Below are positions 25,675 through 36,577 of a DNA stretch of 38,840 nucleotides, piece by piece. The DNA is from Spirochaetia bacterium. Lineage in GTDB: Bacteria; Spirochaetota; UBA4802; UBA5550. The stretch is from the NCBI GenBank assembly GCA_009885955.1, contig VFJS01000028.1:1-38840 (forward strand). The letters run 5' to 3'. Under the pieces are notes generated by a model. It made no database searches. It was not told the origin of the DNA and saw only the letters and a list, made by a program, of their open reading frames with translations. Numbering within the stretch: the first letter of the stretch is position 1; every line of letters starts with the position of its first letter. The position numbers and the translations under genes were made by a program.

Positions 25675-27633
25675 ATGAGGTACGCAGAAACAGGATATAA
25701 TTTAGAAATTGATCTGACCCGGGGAAACATTGAGAGGGTGGAAACCGATCCAAAAGAAACCGAACTTTATCTCGGCGGGCTGGGTACAAACGCCAAGATA
25801 TTATGGGACAGAGTCCCTCCTGAAATTGAGCCTTTTTCTCCTGATAATCTGCTCATATTCGGCACCGGTCTTTTATGCGGCACTCAGGCTGTGGGCTGTA
25901 ACCGCACCATTGTCTCCACCATATCTCCGCAGACGCAATTGATGGCTTTTTCAATGATGGGCGGATTCTGGGCCCCGGAGTTAAAGTATGCCGGTTATGA
26001 CAAGGTGATCGTCCGCGGCAAGTCCCCGAAGCTGGTCTATCTGTGGATAAACAATGATAAGATAGAAATCCGGGATGCCGCTCATCTTAAGGGGAAAGGG
26101 GCTGTTGAAACCCAGGAAATTATACGCAAGGAGCTGAAGGAACCCAAGGCCCAGGTTTCGGCAATAGGCCTGGCCGGTGAGAACAGGGTCTTTTACGCAT
26201 CCATTGAACAGGGCAAGTCCAGCGCCAGCCGTGGGGGAATCGGAGCAGTCATGGGCGACAAGGGGCTTAAGGCCATAGCGGTCCGCGGGACAAAGGACCT
26301 CAATGTTGCCCGGCCCGCAGAATTTCTGAAACTCTGCAATGAAGTAATGGAATACATAAAGTTCCGTGAGGCAAATCCGATAAAAGGTGTCATACCCATT
26401 CTTGCCAGGCTCGGGTCGCCTCAGGAGATGGCAATTCATGATGAACAATGGCACACGGAAAATTTTATGTGGGGAAATTCACGTACCAGGAGAAAAGATT
26501 TCTGGAGCGAGGATATCCACAAGGCCTGGACAGAAACCATGGAACAGGTACGCACCCGGCTCATAAGCTGCTACAACTGCCCGATGAAATGCGGGGCGAC
26601 TATTACCGTCCCCGGGCTTCCGACATACATGATGAAATGCTTTTCTAAACTGACATATCCAATGGCAGCCTTTTCCGACCTGGACTTCGGTTTTAAAATC
26701 GCTCAGCGCGCAACGGAGTACGGTGTTGACTCATACTCAACTCCGCAGGTCATGGCCTTCGCATTGGAATTATATGAAGCCGGTATATTAACAGATAAAG
26801 ACTTCCCGGGCATGCCTGCCGATACCGAGGGGAGATTCTACTGGCTCCTTGACCGGATTGTCAGACGTGAAGGAATAGGGGATGTGCTGGCAAACGGCAC
26901 CCACTGGGCTGCACAGGAGATCGGCAAAGGTGCCGACGCATATGCCCATAATAATATTAAAAAACATGAACAGCTGCCCCTGAAACTGTCAATGCTGAAT
27001 CCCATTTATTTTTTAATGTACTGTACCGGCGAGAAGATAAACATAACCCAGATCGAAGGGCAGTTTCCCCAGGCGCCGTTTAATACGAGAGAGGAGAGGG
27101 AGGAGTTTGTTGACGGATGGTTCCAGGTCCCCGATGAAAAATTCAAGCAGTATTTCCTTGACTGGGAACCGCGCGGAGATAATTCAAACCCCTACTATCC
27201 GAATATTGAAGCAACCTGTGAAATTGTTGACTGGCAGGAGATGATGCATTATATTGATGACGCACTGGGGACATGTACCGGGCTGTCATCATTCCACCTG
27301 AAGCCTCCCTATCATATACACAATTTCCCGAAATTTGTTTCGTCAGGGGCCGGCATCGAGATGGATGAAGCGGTTCTGACCAAGGCAGCCAGGAGAAACC
27401 GGAATTTAATCAGGGCCGTTAATATCAGGAGGGGAATGAGGAGGGCCGATGAGAAGCCCCCGGAAGACCACTGGAAAAAAAGGTTTCCCGAGCTTGAAAC
27501 TGAACTCCTTGATGCCTATTACAAATACAAGGGGTGGGACAACCAGGGGATTCCCACACGAGAGTCTCTATCGGGGCTGGACCTGGCCTATGTTGCCGAC
27601 GACTTGGAACAGAGAGGGATCATAAAGAAATGA
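25675..27633 (+). CDS. bamB: Class II benzoyl-CoA reductase, tungsten-pterin subunit BamB
   Basis: A 652-residue AOR-family enzyme that reduces the aromatic ring of benzoyl-CoA to cyclohexa-1,5-diene-1-carboxyl-CoA without ATP, using a W-bis-pyranopterin and a 4Fe-4S cluster. The N terminus (MRYAETGYNLEIDL, YLGGLGTNAKILWDR) and whole length match BamB of Geobacter metallireducens as I remember it. Family-typical residues fall at the same numbers as in that structure: C322 (W ligand, YMMKCF), E251 and H260. Cluster cysteines are C299, C302, C306 and C534 (DDALGTC). AAGGGG lies about seven bases before the ATG. Its last bases overlap the bamC start. A different aromatic or alicyclic acyl-CoA substrate cannot be ruled out. 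Confidence 0.93.
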   Translation: MRYAETGYNLEIDLTRGNIERVETDPKETELYLGGLGTNAKILWDRVPPEIEPFSPDNLLIFGTGLLCGTQAVGCNRTIVSTISPQTQLMAFSMMGGFWAPELKYAGYDKVIVRGKSPKLVYLWINNDKIEIRDAAHLKGKGAVETQEIIRKELKEPKAQVSAIGLAGENRVFYASIEQGKSSASRGGIGAVMGDKGLKAIAVRGTKDLNVARPAEFLKLCNEVMEYIKFREANPIKGVIPILARLGSPQEMAIHDEQWHTENFMWGNSRTRRKDFWSEDIHKAWTETMEQVRTRLISCYNCPMKCGATITVPGLPTYMMKCFSKLTYPMAAFSDLDFGFKIAQRATEYGVDSYSTPQVMAFALELYEAGILTDKDFPGMPADTEGRFYWLLDRIVRREGIGDVLANGTHWAAQEIGKGADAYAHNNIKKHEQLPLKLSMLNPIYFLMYCTGEKINITQIEGQFPQAPFNTREEREEFVDGWFQVPDEKFKQYFLDWEPRGDNSNPYYPNIEATCEIVDWQEMMHYIDDALGTCTGLSSFHLKPPYHIHNFPKFVSSGAGIEMDEAVLTKAARRNRNLIRAVNIRRGMRRADEKPPEDHWKKRFPELETELLDAYYKYKGWDNQGIPTRESLSGLDLAYVADDLEQRGIIKK

Positions 27634-28169
27634 GCAAAGTTAAAAAGAAAATAAAGACAATAAGGATAGATGTTGATAAGTGCAACGGCTGCCGTTCATG
27701 CGAGATGATATGTTCCTCGTTTCACGCCAATCCGCAATACAGCAGCAATAATCCGGCGAGGTCCAGGATACGTGTGATCCGCGACCCGCATAAAGATATA
27801 TATGTCCCCGTATACGCTGGAGAATATACCGAATCGGAATGTTCCGGCAGGGACAAGTATACGATTAATGGCAAGGAATACGACGAGTGCGCCTTCTGCA
27901 GAGCGTCATGCCCGTCCAGGAGCGAGTTCAAGGAGCCCGATTCCGGGCTTCCCCTGAAATGCGATATGTGCGAAAGCGATCCAACGCTGGAAAAACCCCT
28001 GTGCGTCCAGTGGTGCCTGGCTGATGCCCTTATCTACGAAGAGAGGGAAGAGGAAGTGGAAGAGGATGTGAAGCAGGAAGAGATCGAGGTCGGGCTGGAA
28101 TCAATGGTGGACAAGTACGGGCTGCAGAAGATACTGGATACCGTTGCCCGGATGAAAAAGAAGGACTGA
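27630..28169 (+). CDS. bamC: BamC, ferredoxin-like electron-transfer subunit
   Basis: A 179-residue iron-sulphur protein that forms the BamBC catalytic heterodimer and carries electrons to BamB. Twelve cysteines are available, enough for three 4Fe-4S clusters: CNGCRSCEMIC (about 15-25), an isolated Cys near 70, CAFCRASC (about 89-96), CDMC (about 118) and CVQWC (about 131). The C terminus is acidic (EEREEEVEEDVKQEE). The ATGA start at 27630 overlaps the bamB stop. It is separated from bamD by 229 bases that contain an inverted-repeat element. Confidence 0.92.
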   Translation: MSKVKKKIKTIRIDVDKCNGCRSCEMICSSFHANPQYSSNNPARSRIRVIRDPHKDIYVPVYAGEYTESECSGRDKYTINGKEYDECAFCRASCPSRSEFKEPDSGLPLKCDMCESDPTLEKPLCVQWCLADALIYEEREEEVEEDVKQEEIEVGLESMVDKYGLQKILDTVARMKKKD

Positions 28170-28398: not shown

Positions 28399-29556
28399 AT
28401 GTCAGCAGAGAATGTAGCCGACTACAAAGAGATCGTTGATGTCATAAAAGTTAACGGCGGTGATGCTTTTAAATACTGCTATCAGTGCGGGTTGTGTGAT
28501 GTTGTCTGCCCCTGGAACAGGGTCAGGAAATTCAGCATGCGCAAACTTGTCCGGGAGGCTTTTTTCGGTTTAACCGAGATAGAAAGTGAGGAGATATGGC
28601 GCTGCACGACTTGTGGTAAATGCCCCCAGCAGTGCCCCAGGGACGTAAAACAGATAGATTCAGGGGTAGCGTTACGGAGGATAGCCACGGAATATGGCGT
28701 TTTCCCGGCCCATGTGCGCCCTATCCGTACCGTGACCGCAAGTCTCCTGGGCGAAGGGAACCCATTGAATTCAGACAGGAGCAAGAGGGCCGATTGGGCA
28801 GAAGGCCTTAATGTAAAAACATTCACCGAGGGCATGGAAATTTTATATTTTCCAGGCTGCTATCTCAGTTATGACCCGAGATTGAAAAAGGTTGCAAGGG
28901 CAACAGCTAATATTCTCAACAAGGCCGGCATAGATTTCGGTATCCTCGGCACCAGGGAGAGTTGCTGCGGGGAAAGCATCCGCAAGGCCGGCGCCGAGGA
29001 ATTGTTCAAGCGCCTTGCAAAGGATAACATCAAGGCGTTCATTGATTCCGGAGTGAAAAAAATTCTCGTATCATCGCCCCATTGCTATCATACATTTAAA
29101 AACGAGTACCCCGAATTCAGGGTGAATTTTGAGATTGTACATATCTCCCAGTATTTATTTCAGCTCATCAATGAGGGGAGGCTCGTGATAAAAAAGGAAT
29201 ACGCGAAAAAGGTCGCCTATCATGACCCATGCTACCTTGGCCGGCACAACGGCATATACGACGAACCCAGGGAGGCCTTGAAGAAAATACCCGGGCTGGA
29301 ACTGGCAGAACTGCCGGATTCACGGGCCGACAGCCTCTGCTGCGGAGGGGGAGGAGGCAGGATCTGGATGGAAACACCAAAGGGGGAAAGGTTTTCCGAT
29401 ATAAGGCTGGAACAGGCAGTAAATGCCGGGGCCGATATCCTGGCAACCTCGTGCCCGTACTGCATCACCAATTTTGAGGACAGCCGGCTTTCCCTGGAAA
29501 ACAGTGAAGCCGCGGAGATCAGGGATATCACGGAAATTATCGAGGAAGTGATTTAA
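28399..29556 (+). CDS. bamD: BamD, HdrB/HdrC-like (HdrD-like) subunit
   Basis: A 385-residue protein fusing an HdrC-like ferredoxin domain to an HdrB-like domain. Two 4Fe-4S motifs (C27/C30/C33/C37 and C69/C72/C75/C79) are followed by two CCG domains. The first has C154, C189-C190 and C229. The second has C278, C314-C315 and C352-xx-C355. CCG motifs bind the non-cubane clusters of heterodisulfide reductase HdrB. In the Bam complex it is expected to link BamE to BamBC. AAGGA precedes the ATG. It is 33 bases upstream of bamE. Confidence 0.9.
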   Translation: MSAENVADYKEIVDVIKVNGGDAFKYCYQCGLCDVVCPWNRVRKFSMRKLVREAFFGLTEIESEEIWRCTTCGKCPQQCPRDVKQIDSGVALRRIATEYGVFPAHVRPIRTVTASLLGEGNPLNSDRSKRADWAEGLNVKTFTEGMEILYFPGCYLSYDPRLKKVARATANILNKAGIDFGILGTRESCCGESIRKAGAEELFKRLAKDNIKAFIDSGVKKILVSSPHCYHTFKNEYPEFRVNFEIVHISQYLFQLINEGRLVIKKEYAKKVAYHDPCYLGRHNGIYDEPREALKKIPGLELAELPDSRADSLCCGGGGGRIWMETPKGERFSDIRLEQAVNAGADILATSCPYCITNFEDSRLSLENSEAAEIRDITEIIEEVI

Positions 29557-29589: not shown

Positions 29590-32500
29590 ATGGAAATAGA
29601 ACACGTTAACGATCAGTTTAACAAGAACATGGCTGAAAGTAATTTTGGAGATGTCATGGTTGTCGGTGGAGGGGTCAGCGGAATACAGACAGCCCTTGAC
29701 CTTGCCACCTCGGGTTTCAAGGTCTACCTGGTCGAGAAATCGCCGAGCATCGGGGGGCACATGGCTCAGCTCGATAAGACATTTCCCACGAATGACTGCT
29801 CTATGTGAATTCTCTCACCGAAACTGGTCGAGGTCGACCGGCATCCGAACATAGAAGTTCTTACCTACACGGAAGTTGACAGAGTCGAAGGGGAAGCGGG
29901 AAGTTTCGATGTAACGCTGATTAAAAAGCCCAGGTACATAAATGAGGACAAGTGCACCGGGTGCACCACCTGCGTGGAATACTGCCCTATTAAATATCCT
30001 GATCAATTTAACCAGGATATATCGATGAATAAAGCCATCCATATCTACTTTGCCCAGGCAATCCCCCTGGTGACATATATTGATGAAAGCTGTATCTACC
30101 TTAAAGAGAAGAAGTGCCGCATCTGCTCGGCAGTATGCAAATCCAATGCAATAGATTTCAACCAGACTCCTGAAAAGGTGGAGATACATGTAGGGGCGAT
30201 TATCCTCTCCCTGGGCCTTGAACCCTTTGATCCAAAGCTGAGGGATGAATACGGCTACGGGAAGATGAAGAACGTGGTAACCAGCATGGACTATGAACGG
30301 CTGTTATGCGCCACAGGGCCCAACATGGGCGAGGTGCTGCGGGGTTCAGACAGCAGGCATCCCCATAAGATTGCCTGGATACAGTGCGTCGGTTCACGGC
30401 AGGTAATCCCCGGCGGCAACAGCTATTGCTCCTCCGTATGCTGCACCTATACCCAGAAGCAGGTTATTCTGACAAAGGAACATTCCCCCGAGGCTGACTG
30501 CACGGTATTCCATAATGACATCCGCTCCTTTGGCAAGGATTTTGAGCGGTACTACGAACGGTCGGAGAAACTTCCCGATGTCCGGTTTATCAGGAGCTAT
30601 GTATCCATCGGCAGAGAGATACCGGAATCCAAAAATGTTACGATAAAGTATTCCACTCCCGACGATGGAGTTAAAGAGGAAGAATTCGACATGGTTGTCT
30701 TATCCGTCGGATTGAATCCTCCTGCCGATTTCAAGGGCCTGGCGTCAACCTATGGTATTGAGCTGAATCATCACGGCTTCTGCAAATCGCCTTCAGAAAA
30801 TCCCATGGCGACCACGAGGTCCGGCATATTTGTCAGCGGAGCCTTTCAGGGGCCCATGGATATCCCGGAGGCGGTTATCACCGCCAGCGCGGCCGGGTCC
30901 CAGTGCGGTGAATTCCTCGATTACAGAAGGGGGAAGCTGACCAGGGAAAGGATCTATCCCCTGGAACGGGATGTCTCCAGAGAGGAGCCGAAGATAGGAG
31001 TCTTCGTCTGTCACTGCGGGGCCAATATCGGCAGGATTGTAGATGTTCCTTCCACCGTGGAATATGTCAAGACCCTGCCCAATGTTGTCTACGCAAAGGA
31101 GCAGATGTTTTCATGTGCCACCAATTCTGCTAAAGAGATTGCGGACCTTGCAAAGGAGATGGGGCTCAACCGTGTGGTCCTTGCCGCATGCTCACCCAGG
31201 ACCCTTGAACCGTTATTCCGTGATACCCTCCGGGAAGCCGGGATCAACCAATATTTTCTGGACATGGCCAATATCAGGGAACAATGCTCCTGGGTCCACT
31301 CCAAGGAAAAGGAGGAAGCAACACGGAAGGCAAAGGATATTATCCGCATGTCCGTGGCACGGGCCTGCTTTCTTGAGCCTTTATCAGAGTTTGATCTTCC
31401 GGTAAACAAGACTGCGCTTGTGGTGGGCGGAGGTATAGCCGGGATGACCGCCGCACTCTCCATAGCCGGCCAGGGGCATGAAGTTCACCTGGTGGAAAAG
31501 GATAGCGACATGGGAGGGATGGCGCGGAGAATTCATTACACCCTTGATGGGCTGGATGTCCAGAAATTTCTGGCTGATCTGGTACGCAAGGTATATCAAC
31601 ACCCATTGATCCATGTTTATCTAAATGCTGAAATCAAGGATGCTTCGGGATACGTGGGAAATTTTATAACAAAAGTTACTACTGAAAGAAGGGCAATTGA
31701 GATAAAACATGGAGCAGCCATCATTGCAACCGGAGCTGAAGAATATAAGCCATCGGAATTCCTGTACGGAAATGACGACAGGGTATTGACACAGCTGGAG
31801 CTTGAGGGGCGAATTGCAAATAAGGATGATAGCCTGATCAATTCCAGTACCCTTGTGATGATCCAGTGCGTAGGCTGCAGAAATGAAGAGCGGAATTACT
31901 GTTCCCGGATATGCTGCAGCCAGGCAGTTAAGAATGCCCTGAAATTAAAAGAGATGAACCCCGGAATCGATATCTATATCCTCTTCAGGGACATACGGAC
32001 CTACGGGTTCAGAGAGGATTATTACCGCGAGGCATCAAACAGGGATGTAAAGTTTATCCGCTTCGTTCCCGAGGAAATGCCGGTCCTGGAAGCAGTAGAG
32101 GAGGGAGGGCGGCGTATTCTGAGGGTCACGGTAAACGATATTATTTTAGGCAGGAAGCTTGCCATAGATGCTGATATCATTGCCCTTTCTGCCGCAGTTA
32201 TTCCCCAGGCAGATACCGGTGACGTTGCAGGTTTATTCAAGGTAACCCTGAGTCCCGATGGATTCTTTAAAGAAGCCCATGTCAAATTAAGGCCTGTTGA
32301 GTTCGGGACAAACGGGGTGTATCTCTGCGGAAATGCCCACTATCCCAAACATATATCTGAGACGATTAACCAGGCGTATGGGGCTGCCGGCCGGGCTTTA
32401 ACCCTTCTCTCACACGAGATAGTCAGGGCCTCCGGTTCTGTGTGTGAGGTACATGAGAATGACTGCGTATCGTGCGGGGCATGTATCACAGCCTGTACCT

Positions 32501-32715
32501 ATGGAGCCATAGAATTTCATGATACGCCAAAAGGTAAAAAGGCAGTGGTCAATCCTGTTCTCTGCAAGGGGGACGGCCTCTGTAATGCGAAGTGTCCAAC
32601 AGGGGCAATTTATCTTAAACATTTTACCAATGAGGAGATCCTGAGCCAGATTGATGCGGCCGCACCTGTGAAAGAAATCATGCAGAAAATTGGCGCAGCG
32701 GCTGCGGATGTGTAG
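29590..32715 (+). CDS. bamE: BamE, HdrA-like flavoprotein, selenoprotein (in-frame UGA at codon 73)
   Basis: A 1041-residue protein if the UGA at 29806-29808 is read as Sec73. It is made of two HdrA modules. Module 1 (1 to about 455) has an FAD motif [20 protein letters not shown], the HdrA signature [18 protein letters not shown]-Sec-ILSPKL, and ferredoxin motifs [12 protein letters not shown] and CRICSAVC. Module 2 (about 465 to 945) has [10 protein letters not shown], a second FAD motif [17 protein letters not shown] (about 611), and no second NDCSM motif. Two C-terminal ferredoxin sets follow ([23 protein letters not shown], about 958 to 1005). HdrA performs flavin-based electron bifurcation. 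The Cys usually found at position 73 is Cys in most HdrA and Sec in Methanococcales. Sequence is continuous on both sides of the UGA in one frame. Confidence 0.92.
29806..29841 (+). promoter_or_regulatory. Sec UGA of bamE with putative bacterial SECIS hairpin
   Basis: UGA is at 29806-29808. A seven-base-pair stem (CTGGTCG at 29824-29830 with CGACCGG at 29835-29841, one G-U pair) closes an AGGT loop at 29831-29834. The loop lies 22 bases after the UGA, within the 16-37 range of bacterial SECIS elements, with a G in the first two loop positions. It is entirely inside the coding frame. Confidence 0.7.
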
Positions 32716-32766
32716 AAAAATACGTATGGGTATAACCGGGATTATGAATAGAGGAGGTGGGAACGT

Positions 32767-33534
32767 ATGAGTTCAGGTGTTACATTTAAGCCGAAAATAC
32801 TCGGTTTTGTCTGCCACTGGTGAGGGTACGGCGCTGCCGACCTGGCTGGAGTTTCCAGACTGCAATATACAACTGATATCAGGCTTATCCGCGTCATGTG
32901 TTCCGGCAGAGTCGATCTGGAATTTATACACAGAGCCTTTGCAAATGGAATGGATGGCGTGTTTATTGTCGGATGCCGTTTGAATGAATGTAATTATATC
33001 ACCCATGGAAATTATGATGCCTTTGGCATGGTGCATATATTCAGAAAACTGCTGATGCATATAGGGGTGAATCCTCTCAGGCTGAGGATTGAATTTATGT
33101 CCGGCGGTGAAGGAATTCTTTTTGCCGAAGTGATGAATGACTTCGGCAAAAAAGTGGAGGAGTTAGGACCTCTTGGCGAAAGTGAAGGGATAGACGGAAA
33201 TATATTAACGTTCAATCTTGAAGCAATTAAAACTTTAATCCCCTACATTAAGCTGGTGGAAAGGGAGAGGCTGAGGGTGCCGGTTAAATCGGAAGTGGAG
33301 TACAATAAATTTTTTGCCAGCGACGAGGTTAACAGGGTATTTAATGAATTGATAATCGACAAACTTGCAATAAGCCGGATCATGCAGCTCTTATATGAAA
33401 AGCCCCGTGCAACAGGGGAAATTGCTGAAATGTTGAACCTTAACCCGTCTGAAGTATCAAGACATATTAAAGATTCAACAAGACAGGGATTAGTCAGGTA
33501 TGATGAAGGACAGAAACGCTTTGCCCTGGCCTGA
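32767..33534 (+). CDS. bamF: BamF, MvhD-like subunit, selenoprotein (in-frame UGA at codon 19)
   Basis: A 255-residue protein if UGA 32821-32823 is read as Sec19. The reading is KPKILGFVCHW-Sec-GYGAADLAG, then RLIRVMCSGRVD and VFIVGCRLNECNYITHGN, the signature of MvhD/VhuD 2Fe-2S proteins, where this position is Cys or Sec. MvhD shuttles electrons into HdrA. In G. metallireducens BamF is known as Sec-containing. Residues about 195-255 form a winged helix-turn-helix-like domain (IMQLLYEKPRATGEIAEMLN, then LNPSEVSRHIKDS). GGAGG is about ten bases before ATG 32767. Without Sec decoding, a start at 32896 would give only a 212-residue piece. Confidence 0.9.
32821..32858 (+). promoter_or_regulatory. 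Sec UGA of bamF with putative SECIS hairpin
   Basis: UGA is at 32821-32823. A five-base-pair stem, CTGGA (32846-32850) with TCCAG (32854-32858), closes a three-base loop GTT (32851-32853). The loop starts 27 bases after the last UGA base, within the known range. The lower stem has mismatches, so it is less regular than that of bamE. Confidence 0.55.
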
Positions 33535-33575: not shown

Positions 33576-34028
33576 ATGGATAACGATAGAATAAATCAGA
33601 TTATAGAAAAACATCAGTGTGAAGCCAGTTCGCTGATCCAGGTAATGCTGGAGATTCAGAGCATATATCACTGGCTGCCAAAAGAGGCATTGGAACTGGT
33701 AAGTGATAAGCTGAAGGTGCCTTTGACCAGGATACAGCACATTGCCACCTTTTATAAAGCCTTCAGCCTGGTTCCAAAAGGGCGTCATGGAATCCATATC
33801 TGCATGGGCACTGCGTGCCATGTCCGCGGCGCCGGCCGGATACTTGATTCAGTACAGGACCTCACTGGTATTAAACCGGGCGAAACGGATCTGGATATGA
33901 AGTTCAGCCTGGAGACTGTCAACTGCCTCGGTTGCTGCGCGTTGGGGCCGGTTATGGAAATCAACGGGAAGACTCATGGCAAAATGGCGCCTGCAAAGAC
34001 GGCTGACGTGCTAAAAAACTATGATTAA
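33576..34028 (+). CDS. bamG: BamG, NuoE-like 2Fe-2S subunit
   Basis: A 150-residue homologue of the 24-kDa NuoE subunit of complex I. The N-terminal helical part (SSLIQVMLEIQSIYHWLPKEAL) and the thioredoxin-like domain carry the 2Fe-2S ligands C76 and C81 (CMGTAC) and C117 and C121 (CLGCC). With BamH it forms the NAD(H)-reactive module of the complex. AGGAAA precedes the ATG. It lies 41 bases after bamF and 9 bases before bamH. Confidence 0.94.
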   Translation: MDNDRINQIIEKHQCEASSLIQVMLEIQSIYHWLPKEALELVSDKLKVPLTRIQHIATFYKAFSLVPKGRHGIHICMGTACHVRGAGRILDSVQDLTGIKPGETDLDMKFSLETVNCLGCCALGPVMEINGKTHGKMAPAKTADVLKNYD

Positions 34029-34037
34029 GGAAAAATT

Positions 34038-35966
34038 ATGTCGCTGATAAATTCGCCCGCAGAATTGGAAAAATTCAGGGAAGGCATTTTATCGAAAAGA
34101 GACCCCGATAAGCCCTGCATCACGCTCTGTTGCGGTTCCGCCTGCCATGCCTCAGGCAGCGGGGAAGTGGCGGCAAGCATTGAAGAGGAGATAAAAAAAC
34201 AGGGCTTAAGCGGCAAGGTGGACATCAGGAAGACCGGCTGCCATGGTTTTTGCGAGAGAGGACCTATCATTGTCAACCGGCCGGAGGAAATAACATATTT
34301 CCAGATAGAGCCCAAAGATGTTCCTGAAATCATCTCCCAGACAATCAAGGAGAATAAGGTCATAGACCGTCTGGTCTATACCGACCCGGGCACAGGTGAA
34401 CAGATTATTCATGAACATGAAATCCCCTTTTACAAGAACCAGGAGCGGCTGGTTTTCGGCTCCAACGGTAGCATTGATCCCAAGAGCATCGATGATTACC
34501 TGGCTATCGGAGGGTATTCGGCGCTGGTCAAATCCCTAACTGTAATGACCCCGGAACAGGTATTGGATGAAGTGAAAAAATCGAAATTGAGAGGCAGGGG
34601 CGGCGGCGGTTTTCCCACCGGGAGAAAGTGGGAAGGATCACGCAATGCCCCTGAAAAGATAAAATATGTCATCGTAAACGCAGACGAGGGGGACCCCGGG
34701 GCTTACATGGACAGAGCCCTCCTTGAAGGAAATCCTCACGCCGTGCTGGAGGGATTGACTATTGGAGCTTATGCCATCGGTTCCCATGAGGGCTACATCT
34801 ATGTCCGGCAGGAATACCCCATGGCAGTTGAGAATGTGACCCTTGCGATTAAACAGGCTGAGGATTACGGCCTTCTCGGAAAAAATATTCTCGGCACCGG
34901 TTTCGATTTCATTGTCAAGGTGCACCAGGGTGCAGGCGCTTTTGTCTGCGGTGAATCGAGCGCTCTCATGACCGCCCTTGAAGGCAGGGCTGGGGAGCCA
35001 AGGCCGAAATATATCCGATCAAACATCAAGGGCCTCTGGGACAGGCCGAGCGTTTTAAATAATGTGGAGACATGGGCAAACGTGCCTCTCATCATAAACA
35101 AAGGCGCTGAATGGTTTGCCGGTATCGGTACTGATGAGAGCAAGGGGACGAAGATTTTTTCCCTCGTGGGAAAGATAACCAATACCGGCCTTGTGGAAGT
35201 TCCCATGGGTATGACACTGAGAGATATTATATACAAGATCGGCGGCGGAATACCGGGCGGCAAGAAGTTCAAAGCGGTGCAGACAGGCGGGCCGTCGGGA
35301 GGATGCATCCCTGAGGATCAGCTTGATCTCCAGGTGGGTTTTGATGAACTCACCAGGGCCGGTTCTATGATGGGATCGGGCGGCATGATCGTTATGGATG
35401 AAGATACCTGCATGGTGGATGTATCAAGATACTTCCTCGACTTCCTCACCGATGAATCGTGCGGGAAATGCGTACCATGCCGTGAAGGAATGAGGCAGAT
35501 GCTCAAGATACTCACGAATATCACCATGGGCAGGGGAAAAGACGGCGACATAAAGCTGCTGGAGGAATTATCCGAAGTTCTGGGAGATGCCTCGCTCTGC
35601 GCACTTGGCAGGACTGCGCCGAATCCTTTTTTAAGTACCCTCAAGTATTTCAGGAGCGAGTACGAAGCCCATATCCGGGACAAGAAGTGTCCGGCCCTGA
35701 CCTGCAAGGAACTCATATCGTTCTACATAGACCCGGACAAATGCAATGCCTGCACCATATGCTATAAGCAATGCCCATCAGATGCCATCATCGGGGGTAA
35801 GAACATGATTCATATCGTGGACCAGGTGAAATGCACAAAGTGCGGGACCTGCTTTGAAGTCTGTCCCCAGCGCTTTGGCGCTGTGATGAAGATTTCAGGC
35901 GAGCCTGTTCCGCCTCCTCTCCCTGAGGAGAAAAGAGCTTTTACCAGGAAGGCAAAAGAAAAATGA
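34038..35966 (+). CDS. bamH: BamH, NuoF-like NAD(H)/FMN subunit
   Basis: A 642-residue flavoprotein. Residues 25-90 are a thioredoxin-like 2Fe-2S domain (C31 or C32, C36, C68, C72). The NuoF core begins about 157, with the FMN/NADH motif KLRGRGGGGFPTGRKW (183-198) and NADEGDPGAYMDR. The 4Fe-4S motif SCGKCVPCREGM is near 475. Two C-terminal ferredoxin motifs (CNACTICYKQCP and CTKCGTCFEVCP, about 570-615) complete it. It is the site where NAD(H) exchanges electrons with the Bam complex. It ends overlapping the bamI start (ATGA). Confidence 0.95.
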   Translation: MSLINSPAELEKFREGILSKRDPDKPCITLCCGSACHASGSGEVAASIEEEIKKQGLSGKVDIRKTGCHGFCERGPIIVNRPEEITYFQIEPKDVPEIISQTIKENKVIDRLVYTDPGTGEQIIHEHEIPFYKNQERLVFGSNGSIDPKSIDDYLAIGGYSALVKSLTVMTPEQVLDEVKKSKLRGRGGGGFPTGRKWEGSRNAPEKIKYVIVNADEGDPGAYMDRALLEGNPHAVLEGLTIGAYAIGSHEGYIYVRQEYPMAVENVTLAIKQAEDYGLLGKNILGTGFDFIVKVHQGAGAFVCGESSALMTALEGRAGEPRPKYIRSNIKGLWDRPSVLNNVETWANVPLIINKGAEWFAGIGTDESKGTKIFSLVGKITNTGLVEVPMGMTLRDIIYKIGGGIPGGKKFKAVQTGGPSGGCIPEDQLDLQVGFDELTRAGSMMGSGGMIVMDEDTCMVDVSRYFLDFLTDESCGKCVPCREGMRQMLKILTNITMGRGKDGDIKLLEELSEVLGDASLCALGRTAPNPFLSTLKYFRSEYEAHIRDKKCPALTCKELISFYIDPDKCNACTICYKQCPSDAIIGGKNMIHIVDQVKCTKCGTCFEVCPQRFGAVMKISGEPVPPPLPEEKRAFTRKAKEK

Positions 35967-36577
35967 GTGATATCATATTAACCATTGACGGAAAAGAAGT
36001 TTCAGCCGGGGAAGGGAGCACGATTCTTGAGGCTGCGCGAAGCGTCGGGATAAAGATTCCCACCCTCTGCAACCATGAAAAACTGGAGCCCTACGGCGGC
36101 TGCCGGATATGCACCGTGGAAGCAGAGGGCCGCGGCGGGACACAGTTGGTTGCGGCCTGCCTTTACCCGGTGGAAAAAAACCTGGTCGTGAGGACCAGGT
36201 CCGTGAAGGTGGACAGGATACGAAAAATGATTCTTGAATTATTGCTCGCCCACGCCCCGGATTCCATGGAAATGCAGGATCTTATGAAAGAGTATGGAGC
36301 TGACAGGAACCGTTTTGAAAAAGAGGCATCATTCTGCATTCATTGCGGCCTGTGCGTCCGGTACTGTGCTGAGGTGAAGAAGGCGAACGCCGTGGGATTC
36401 ATTGACAGAGGGACAAGGCGGGAGATAAGTTTCATCCCGGAGATAGCATCGAGTGAGTGCTGGAACTGCAAGGAATGTTTTCCTTTATGCCCGACATCGG
36501 CACTGCAGGCAGCGTATGTCCTGACGGAAGCGTTAAATTCACTCACCCATCCCTTCAGGCACGGGCCCGAGGAATAA
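35963..36577 (+). CDS. bamI: BamI, NuoG-like iron-sulphur subunit
   Basis: A 204-residue short NuoG/HoxU-like protein. The N-terminal 2Fe-2S ferredoxin fold has C36, C47, C50 and C66. Two 4Fe-4S motifs follow, C125/C128/C131/C135 and C166/C169/C172/C176. It lacks the molybdopterin domain of full NuoG, as expected for BamI. Its ATG overlaps the bamH stop by four bases. It should pass electrons between BamH and the HdrA-like BamE. Confidence 0.93.
   Translation: MSDIILTIDGKEVSAGEGSTILEAARSVGIKIPTLCNHEKLEPYGGCRICTVEAEGRGGTQLVAACLYPVEKNLVVRTRSVKVDRIRKMILELLLAHAPDSMEMQDLMKEYGADRNRFEKEASFCIHCGLCVRYCAEVKKANAVGFIDRGTRREISFIPEIASSECWNCKECFPLCPTSALQAAYVLTEALNSLTHPFRHGPEE

Follow-up and report, generated by a model that had tools for sequence, protein, structure and literature searches.

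Comparative evidence for selenocysteine in BamF, beside BamE, in a class II benzoyl-CoA reductase operon of a spirochaete

Known Relatives of BamE and BamF

Class II benzoyl-CoA reductases, bacterial complexes for the anaerobic breakdown of aromatic rings, are called W/Se-containing enzymes. The 1-MDa Bam complex of Geobacter is reportedly furnished with two selenocysteines (Sec), and the tungsten-ligating Cys of its BamB subunit is Cys322 in Geobacter metallireducens. By bifurcating electrons, the class II reductase is believed to attain a potential of about -650 mV at its tungsten site (PMC12096430). In G. metallireducens, bamF is Gmet_2083, described as 'hydrogenase, delta subunit; HTH' (PMC1924859). 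A single Sec-containing FrhD-family protein was reported from this species (PMC1794560, Table 3), and we take it to be BamF. The BamE of Desulfococcus multivorans (dmul_C24500/10) is an HdrA-like Bam subunit whose gene contains a UGA and a SECIS element; that report names BamE, but not BamF, among five Sec genes (PMC5109826). Sec-containing hdrA-frhD operons are known in archaea and Deltaproteobacteria (PMC1794560). The Sec-containing VhuD/MvhD of methanogens and of the deltaproteobacterial operons have the FlpD fold and a CxxU motif, and they adjoin a Sec-containing HdrA (PMC1794560, PMC13188914). Each half of the arrangement described below is thus known already, as Sec in BamE (Desulfococcus), as Sec in an FrhD-family protein (G. 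metallireducens) and as Sec pairs in hdrA-frhD operons. A partial literature search found no paper stating Sec in both BamE and BamF of one operon.

The bam Operon in the Window

The window (the whole stretch of 38,840 nt analysed here, from a Spirochaetia bacterium) holds a complete bamBCDEFGHI operon, with the gene set and gene order of a class II benzoyl-CoA reductase. The operon is predicted from its genes to encode this enzyme. The genes are as follows.

25675..27633, + strand: bamB, AOR-family (W/Mo-pterin) catalytic subunit (PF02730/PF01314; mostly 54-83% identity in syntenic loci)
27630..28169, + strand: bamC, 4Fe-4S ferredoxin-like, inferred start: the ATG that overlaps the stop codon of bamB (Pfam, synteny)
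28399..29556, + strand: bamD, HdrB/C- or GlpC-like CCG-domain subunit (PF02754, E=4.4e-39)
29590..32715, + strand: bamE, HdrA-like flavoprotein with its own in-frame UGA (Pfam; HdrA chain 5odc_A, E=6.4e-190)
32767..33534, + strand: bamF, 255 residues when read through UGA19 (Pfam, AF2, Foldseek)
33576..34028, + strand: bamG, NuoE/HoxE-like (PF01257, synteny)
34038..35966, + strand: bamH, NuoF-like (PF01512, PF10589, synteny)
35963..36577, + strand: bamI, NuoG-N-like 2Fe-2S/4Fe-4S subunit (PF13510, PF12838)

The gene order is identical to that of G. metallireducens, whose BamF likewise combines an FlpD domain with an HTH (PMC1924859). However, BamE of Geobacter-type loci has Cys, whereas in the window both BamE and BamF are read with Sec. 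Several features also set the window apart from the VhuD/MvhD systems. It has no hydrogenase, and the partner module is NuoEFG-like (BamGHI). Its BamF has an extra winged-helix domain, and its SECIS is bacterial and in-frame, whereas the archaeal SECIS lies in the 3' UTR.

An In-Frame UGA at Codon 19 of bamF

The bamF frame (32767-33534, + strand) comprises 255 codons and translates as MSSGVTFKPKILGFVCHW*GYGAADLAGVSR..., the sole internal stop being the TGA of codon 19. Three features near its 5' end are needed here.

32749..32766, + strand: Shine-Dalgarno AGAGGAGGTG and the spacer up to the bamF ATG (sequence reading)
32821..32823, + strand: in-frame UGA, predicted Sec19 (TGA in 69 of 84 related loci, Cys in 15)
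32846..32858, + strand: predicted apical hairpin of a bacterial SECIS, CUGG-AGUUU-CCAG, with the loop G and U at 32851-32852 (69/69 pairing with covariation)

The residues around the UGA read KILGFVCHW-U-GYGAADLAGVSRLQY. As the original prediction had proposed, the UGA takes the place of the second Cys in the CxWC motif of FlpD/MvhD proteins (FVCHW-U-GYGAADLAG). The segment AGGAGGTG stands immediately 5' of the ATG at 32767, and no Shine-Dalgarno-like motif was found in the sequence before the internal ATG at 32896.

Related loci were taken from a one-genome-per-species scan, as the best 80 of 564 that encode a relative, together with four whole-genome hits. Among these 84 loci (one genome is counted twice, as L020 and L095 overlap), codon 19 was TGA in 69 and Cys in 15, and it was nothing else. 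The UGA is aligned with Cys or Sec of the homologues, as expected of a bacterial selenoprotein gene. The assembly is a draft of 117 contigs and some homologues have Cys at this codon, which would fit a sequencing or assembly error for TGC, TGT or TGG, with BamF being an ordinary Cys protein. However, independently assembled genomes carry the same TGA at 68 other loci, and the downstream hairpin described below is specific to the TGA-bearing genes. We consider such an error vanishingly improbable.

The UGA might also be a true stop, in a pseudogene or a regulated truncation, leaving a 212-residue protein that starts at 32896 and lacks the CxW(U/C) motif. This ORF does exist, and it is what a conventional gene caller would report as bamF. 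Against this reading, the Shine-Dalgarno sequence precedes 32767 and not 32896. Codons 8-18, upstream of the UGA, change mainly synonymously (315 synonymous versus 116 non-synonymous changes) and encode an invariant motif, and the MvhD-type conservation continues beyond the UGA in all homologues. A true stop is accordingly very improbable. The original prediction had itself named a misread UGA and an internal start after a real stop as the two ways in which it could be wrong. As the codon-19 TGA and the hairpin are conserved across the relatives, both are excluded in practice.

A Conserved SECIS Hairpin Downstream of the UGA

The published model of the bacterial SECIS has a G in the first two loop positions, a spacing of 16-37 nt and a minimum free energy (MFE) cutoff of -7.5 kcal/mol, and in most bacterial SECIS elements a base pair flanks the loop G[G/U] (PMC13188914). 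We looked for a stem of at least 4 bp with a small loop, a G in its first two positions and a location 16-37 nt past the UGA. The bamF hairpin has the stem CUGG/CCAG and the loop AGUUU, 26 nt separate the UGA from this loop, and the pair flanking the loop GU is present. Its MFE of -6.0 kcal/mol is weaker than -7.5 kcal/mol, which is a search cutoff and not a biological requirement. The SECIS prediction for bamF was thus upheld in stem, loop G and spacing but not in folding energy. A scan of Rfam for a known SECIS family gave no relevant match. A simple SECIS rule was satisfied by 21% of synonymous randomisations, so the hairpin would be weak evidence on one sequence alone. Its thermodynamic fold z-score of -1.2 was uninformative.

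We compared the hairpin among 69 distinct Sec sequences, with the window included and the duplicate left out. The stem (32846-32849/32855-32858) was paired in all 69, whereas only one of 16 Cys sequences could pair at 32847/32857, and most Cys homologues have lost the hairpin or retain it only in degenerate form. The pair 32847/32857 is U-A, but G-C in two distant loci (L065 and L089). Positions 32850 and 32853, which are the wobble positions of the Gly28 and Val29 codons, were A/U in 62 sequences, G/C in four and C/G in three, with no other combinations. This covariation is perfect and both sites are synonymous, so the selection here is on the RNA. In 51 sequences, nine cells showed double changes, compared with 0.6 in shuffles, and the signal was gone in slid registers. 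The synonymous entropy of codons 27-31 was 0-0.32 of background in Sec genes and at least 0.53 in Cys genes, except at codon 27, where most Cys genes have an invariant TGC (Cys). The RNAalifold consensus of the 51 sequences was this hairpin alone. With its spacing and its compensatory changes, the CTGGA/TCCAG hairpin that had been predicted at SECIS distance was borne out.

RNAalifold closed the loop with the pair 32850-32854. We rejected this closure, which is broken in three sequences, whereas 32850-32853 covaries perfectly. The latter two positions flank the conserved SECIS GU, two bases apart, and give a closure tighter than that of RNAalifold.

The genome has the full machinery for decoding Sec. 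Genes selA and selB are adjacent on one contig, tRNA-Sec (selC) with anticodon UCA is present, and so is selD (G000:C112:58989-59912), which carries one in-frame TGA. The N-terminal read of selD, GSG-U-ASKLG, fits a selenoprotein SelD. Taken with this machinery, codon 19 and the hairpin mark bamF as a selenoprotein gene, in agreement with the original prediction; it is the comparative evidence that carries the case.

Fold and Domains of BamF

Pfam assigned residues 11-134 of BamF to FlpD (PF02662, E=2.6e-43) and residues 204-245 to a C-terminal ArsR-type winged helix (PF01022, E=5.7e-8). The AlphaFold2 (AF2) model of BamF had a pLDDT of 91.6. Both the profile search and this model matched MvhD chains of solved Hdr complexes, with TM(target) of 0.90-0.97 (Foldseek: 0.92 for 5odc_D and 0.97 for 8rvu_F). 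Across 43 sequences, the invariant Cys/Sec positions of the FlpD domain were 16, 19, 45, 70 and 75, as expected of an MvhD/FlpD subunit. These five are one more than a [2Fe-2S] cluster needs, so Sec19 could either bind the cluster or be a redox thiol near it. An FlpD paralogue in the same genome (L104, 1513 onward, G000:C70:328888-329256) has Cys at the position of BamF residue 19 (CCKFC) and Sec at that of residue 70 (VAG-U-EEGDC). This swap hints that positions 19 and 70 may work at one site. In locus L103, Sec is found at the counterpart of position 19 (CSY-U).

Two kinds of C-terminus were seen in BamF (33376-33531 in the window; loci L018-L101), a winged helix and a 4Fe-4S dicluster. Gene bamG was found within 1.5 kb downstream for 34 of the 38 winged-helix BamF with enough sequence, versus none of the 29 dicluster BamF. 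The C-terminal tail of BamF seems to be exchanged along with the NADH module.

Proposed Role of BamF

Very probably, the Sec-decoded BamF is an MvhD/FlpD-type connector of a bifurcating class II benzoyl-CoA reductase, likely with a [2Fe-2S] cluster and with Sec19 as a ligand or a redox thiol. SelB and tRNA-Sec, guided by the hairpin 26 nt further on, would read the UGA of codon 19 as selenocysteine. The product would serve as the connector in the ATP-independent, bifurcating complex Bam(BC)DEFGHI. MvhD homologues bind [2Fe-2S] near the bifurcating FAD (PMC12350162), and, judged from such homologues, the FlpD domain of BamF most likely holds this cluster. BamF would then link the NuoEF-like module (BamGHI) to the HdrA-like, Sec-containing BamE by passing electrons between this module and the bifurcating flavin of BamE, with Sec19 acting as a cluster ligand or as a redox-active thiol beside the cluster. 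The reading frame, the decoding machinery, the SECIS conservation, the fold, the operon and the pairing with BamE were observed directly; the cluster, the electron path and the role of Sec are proposed from knowledge of the family. The reaction can do without Sec, as complete Cys/Cys bam operons exist.

Pairing of Sec in BamE and BamF

The reading of bamE starts at the ATG at 29590 and has two features of interest.

29806..29808, + strand: in-frame UGA of bamE, residue 73 (NDCSM-U-ILSPK), at the position of Cys197 in M. thermolithotrophicus HdrA (5odc)
29824..29841, + strand: candidate SECIS hairpin CTGGTCGAGGTCGACCGG after the bamE UGA, near-invariant in the 44 listed TGA-bearing BamE genes

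Both codons were readable in 59 loci (among the best 80 of 564 plus the four whole-genome hits). The bamE TGA was conserved in 43 of them, in line with the view that BamF is the second selenoprotein of the operon. All 43 were Sec/Sec; 10 loci were Cys/Cys, six had Sec only in BamF (five Geobacter-type and one Desulfotomaculum), and none had it only in BamE. With Sec in both an HdrA-like and an MvhD-like subunit, the proposed resemblance to the HdrA/VhuD pair of methanogens also stands (compare the hdrA-frhD operons; PMC1794560).

A functional coupling of the two selenols along one electron path had also been suggested. BamE and BamF are correlated in their Sec status (Fisher test, P = 4.7e-7), but the concatenated E+F tree requires only two changes in F and one in E. 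Because the changes are so few, we do not take this P value as evidence for coupling. The Sec/Sec pairing is real and old but is weak evidence for a functional coupling, which is no more than plausible. It may instead be that bamF is a selenoprotein gene but that Sec19 is not specially coupled to the Sec of BamE, the pairing being the inherited history of one clade. To this reading we give a little less than an even chance. It agrees with the few changes on the tree and with the six loci, five of the Geobacter type, that have Sec only in BamF. However, BamE-only loci are absent from the 59, and pairs of Sec-containing HdrA and MvhD recur in other hdrA-frhD operons (PMC1794560, PMC2702500). The paired selenols are dispensable, since in Geobacter-type complexes only F contains Sec and some bam operons are complete with Cys in both subunits.

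A stronger form of coupling seems unlikely to us. The two selenols would be a matched pair that gates the flow of electrons where BamF meets BamE, with Sec19 being redox-active together with Cys70 and not a plain ligand; this partnership was suggested by the paralogue L104, which has its Sec at the Cys70 equivalent instead. If it were true, Sec would tune the step from [2Fe-2S] to the bifurcating flavin, a step without a mechanism in the published electron path.

In the sampled loci, class II benzoyl-CoA reductases commonly carry Sec in BamE as well as in BamF, whereas the Geobacter-type biochemical model has it in BamF only. Where a gene caller treats UGA as a stop, both genes are prone to mis-annotation, BamF being begun at an internal Met and BamE truncated. 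The natural operons with Sec in both subunits, in F only or in neither form a ready set for studying the role of selenium in an enzyme that operates close to biology's lower redox limit.

The Geobacter-type loci with Sec in BamF and Cys in BamE (L047, L050, L053, L056 and L062) grouped with Cys/Cys operons on the E+F tree. This grouping suggests that Sec in their BamF was either retained or re-gained.
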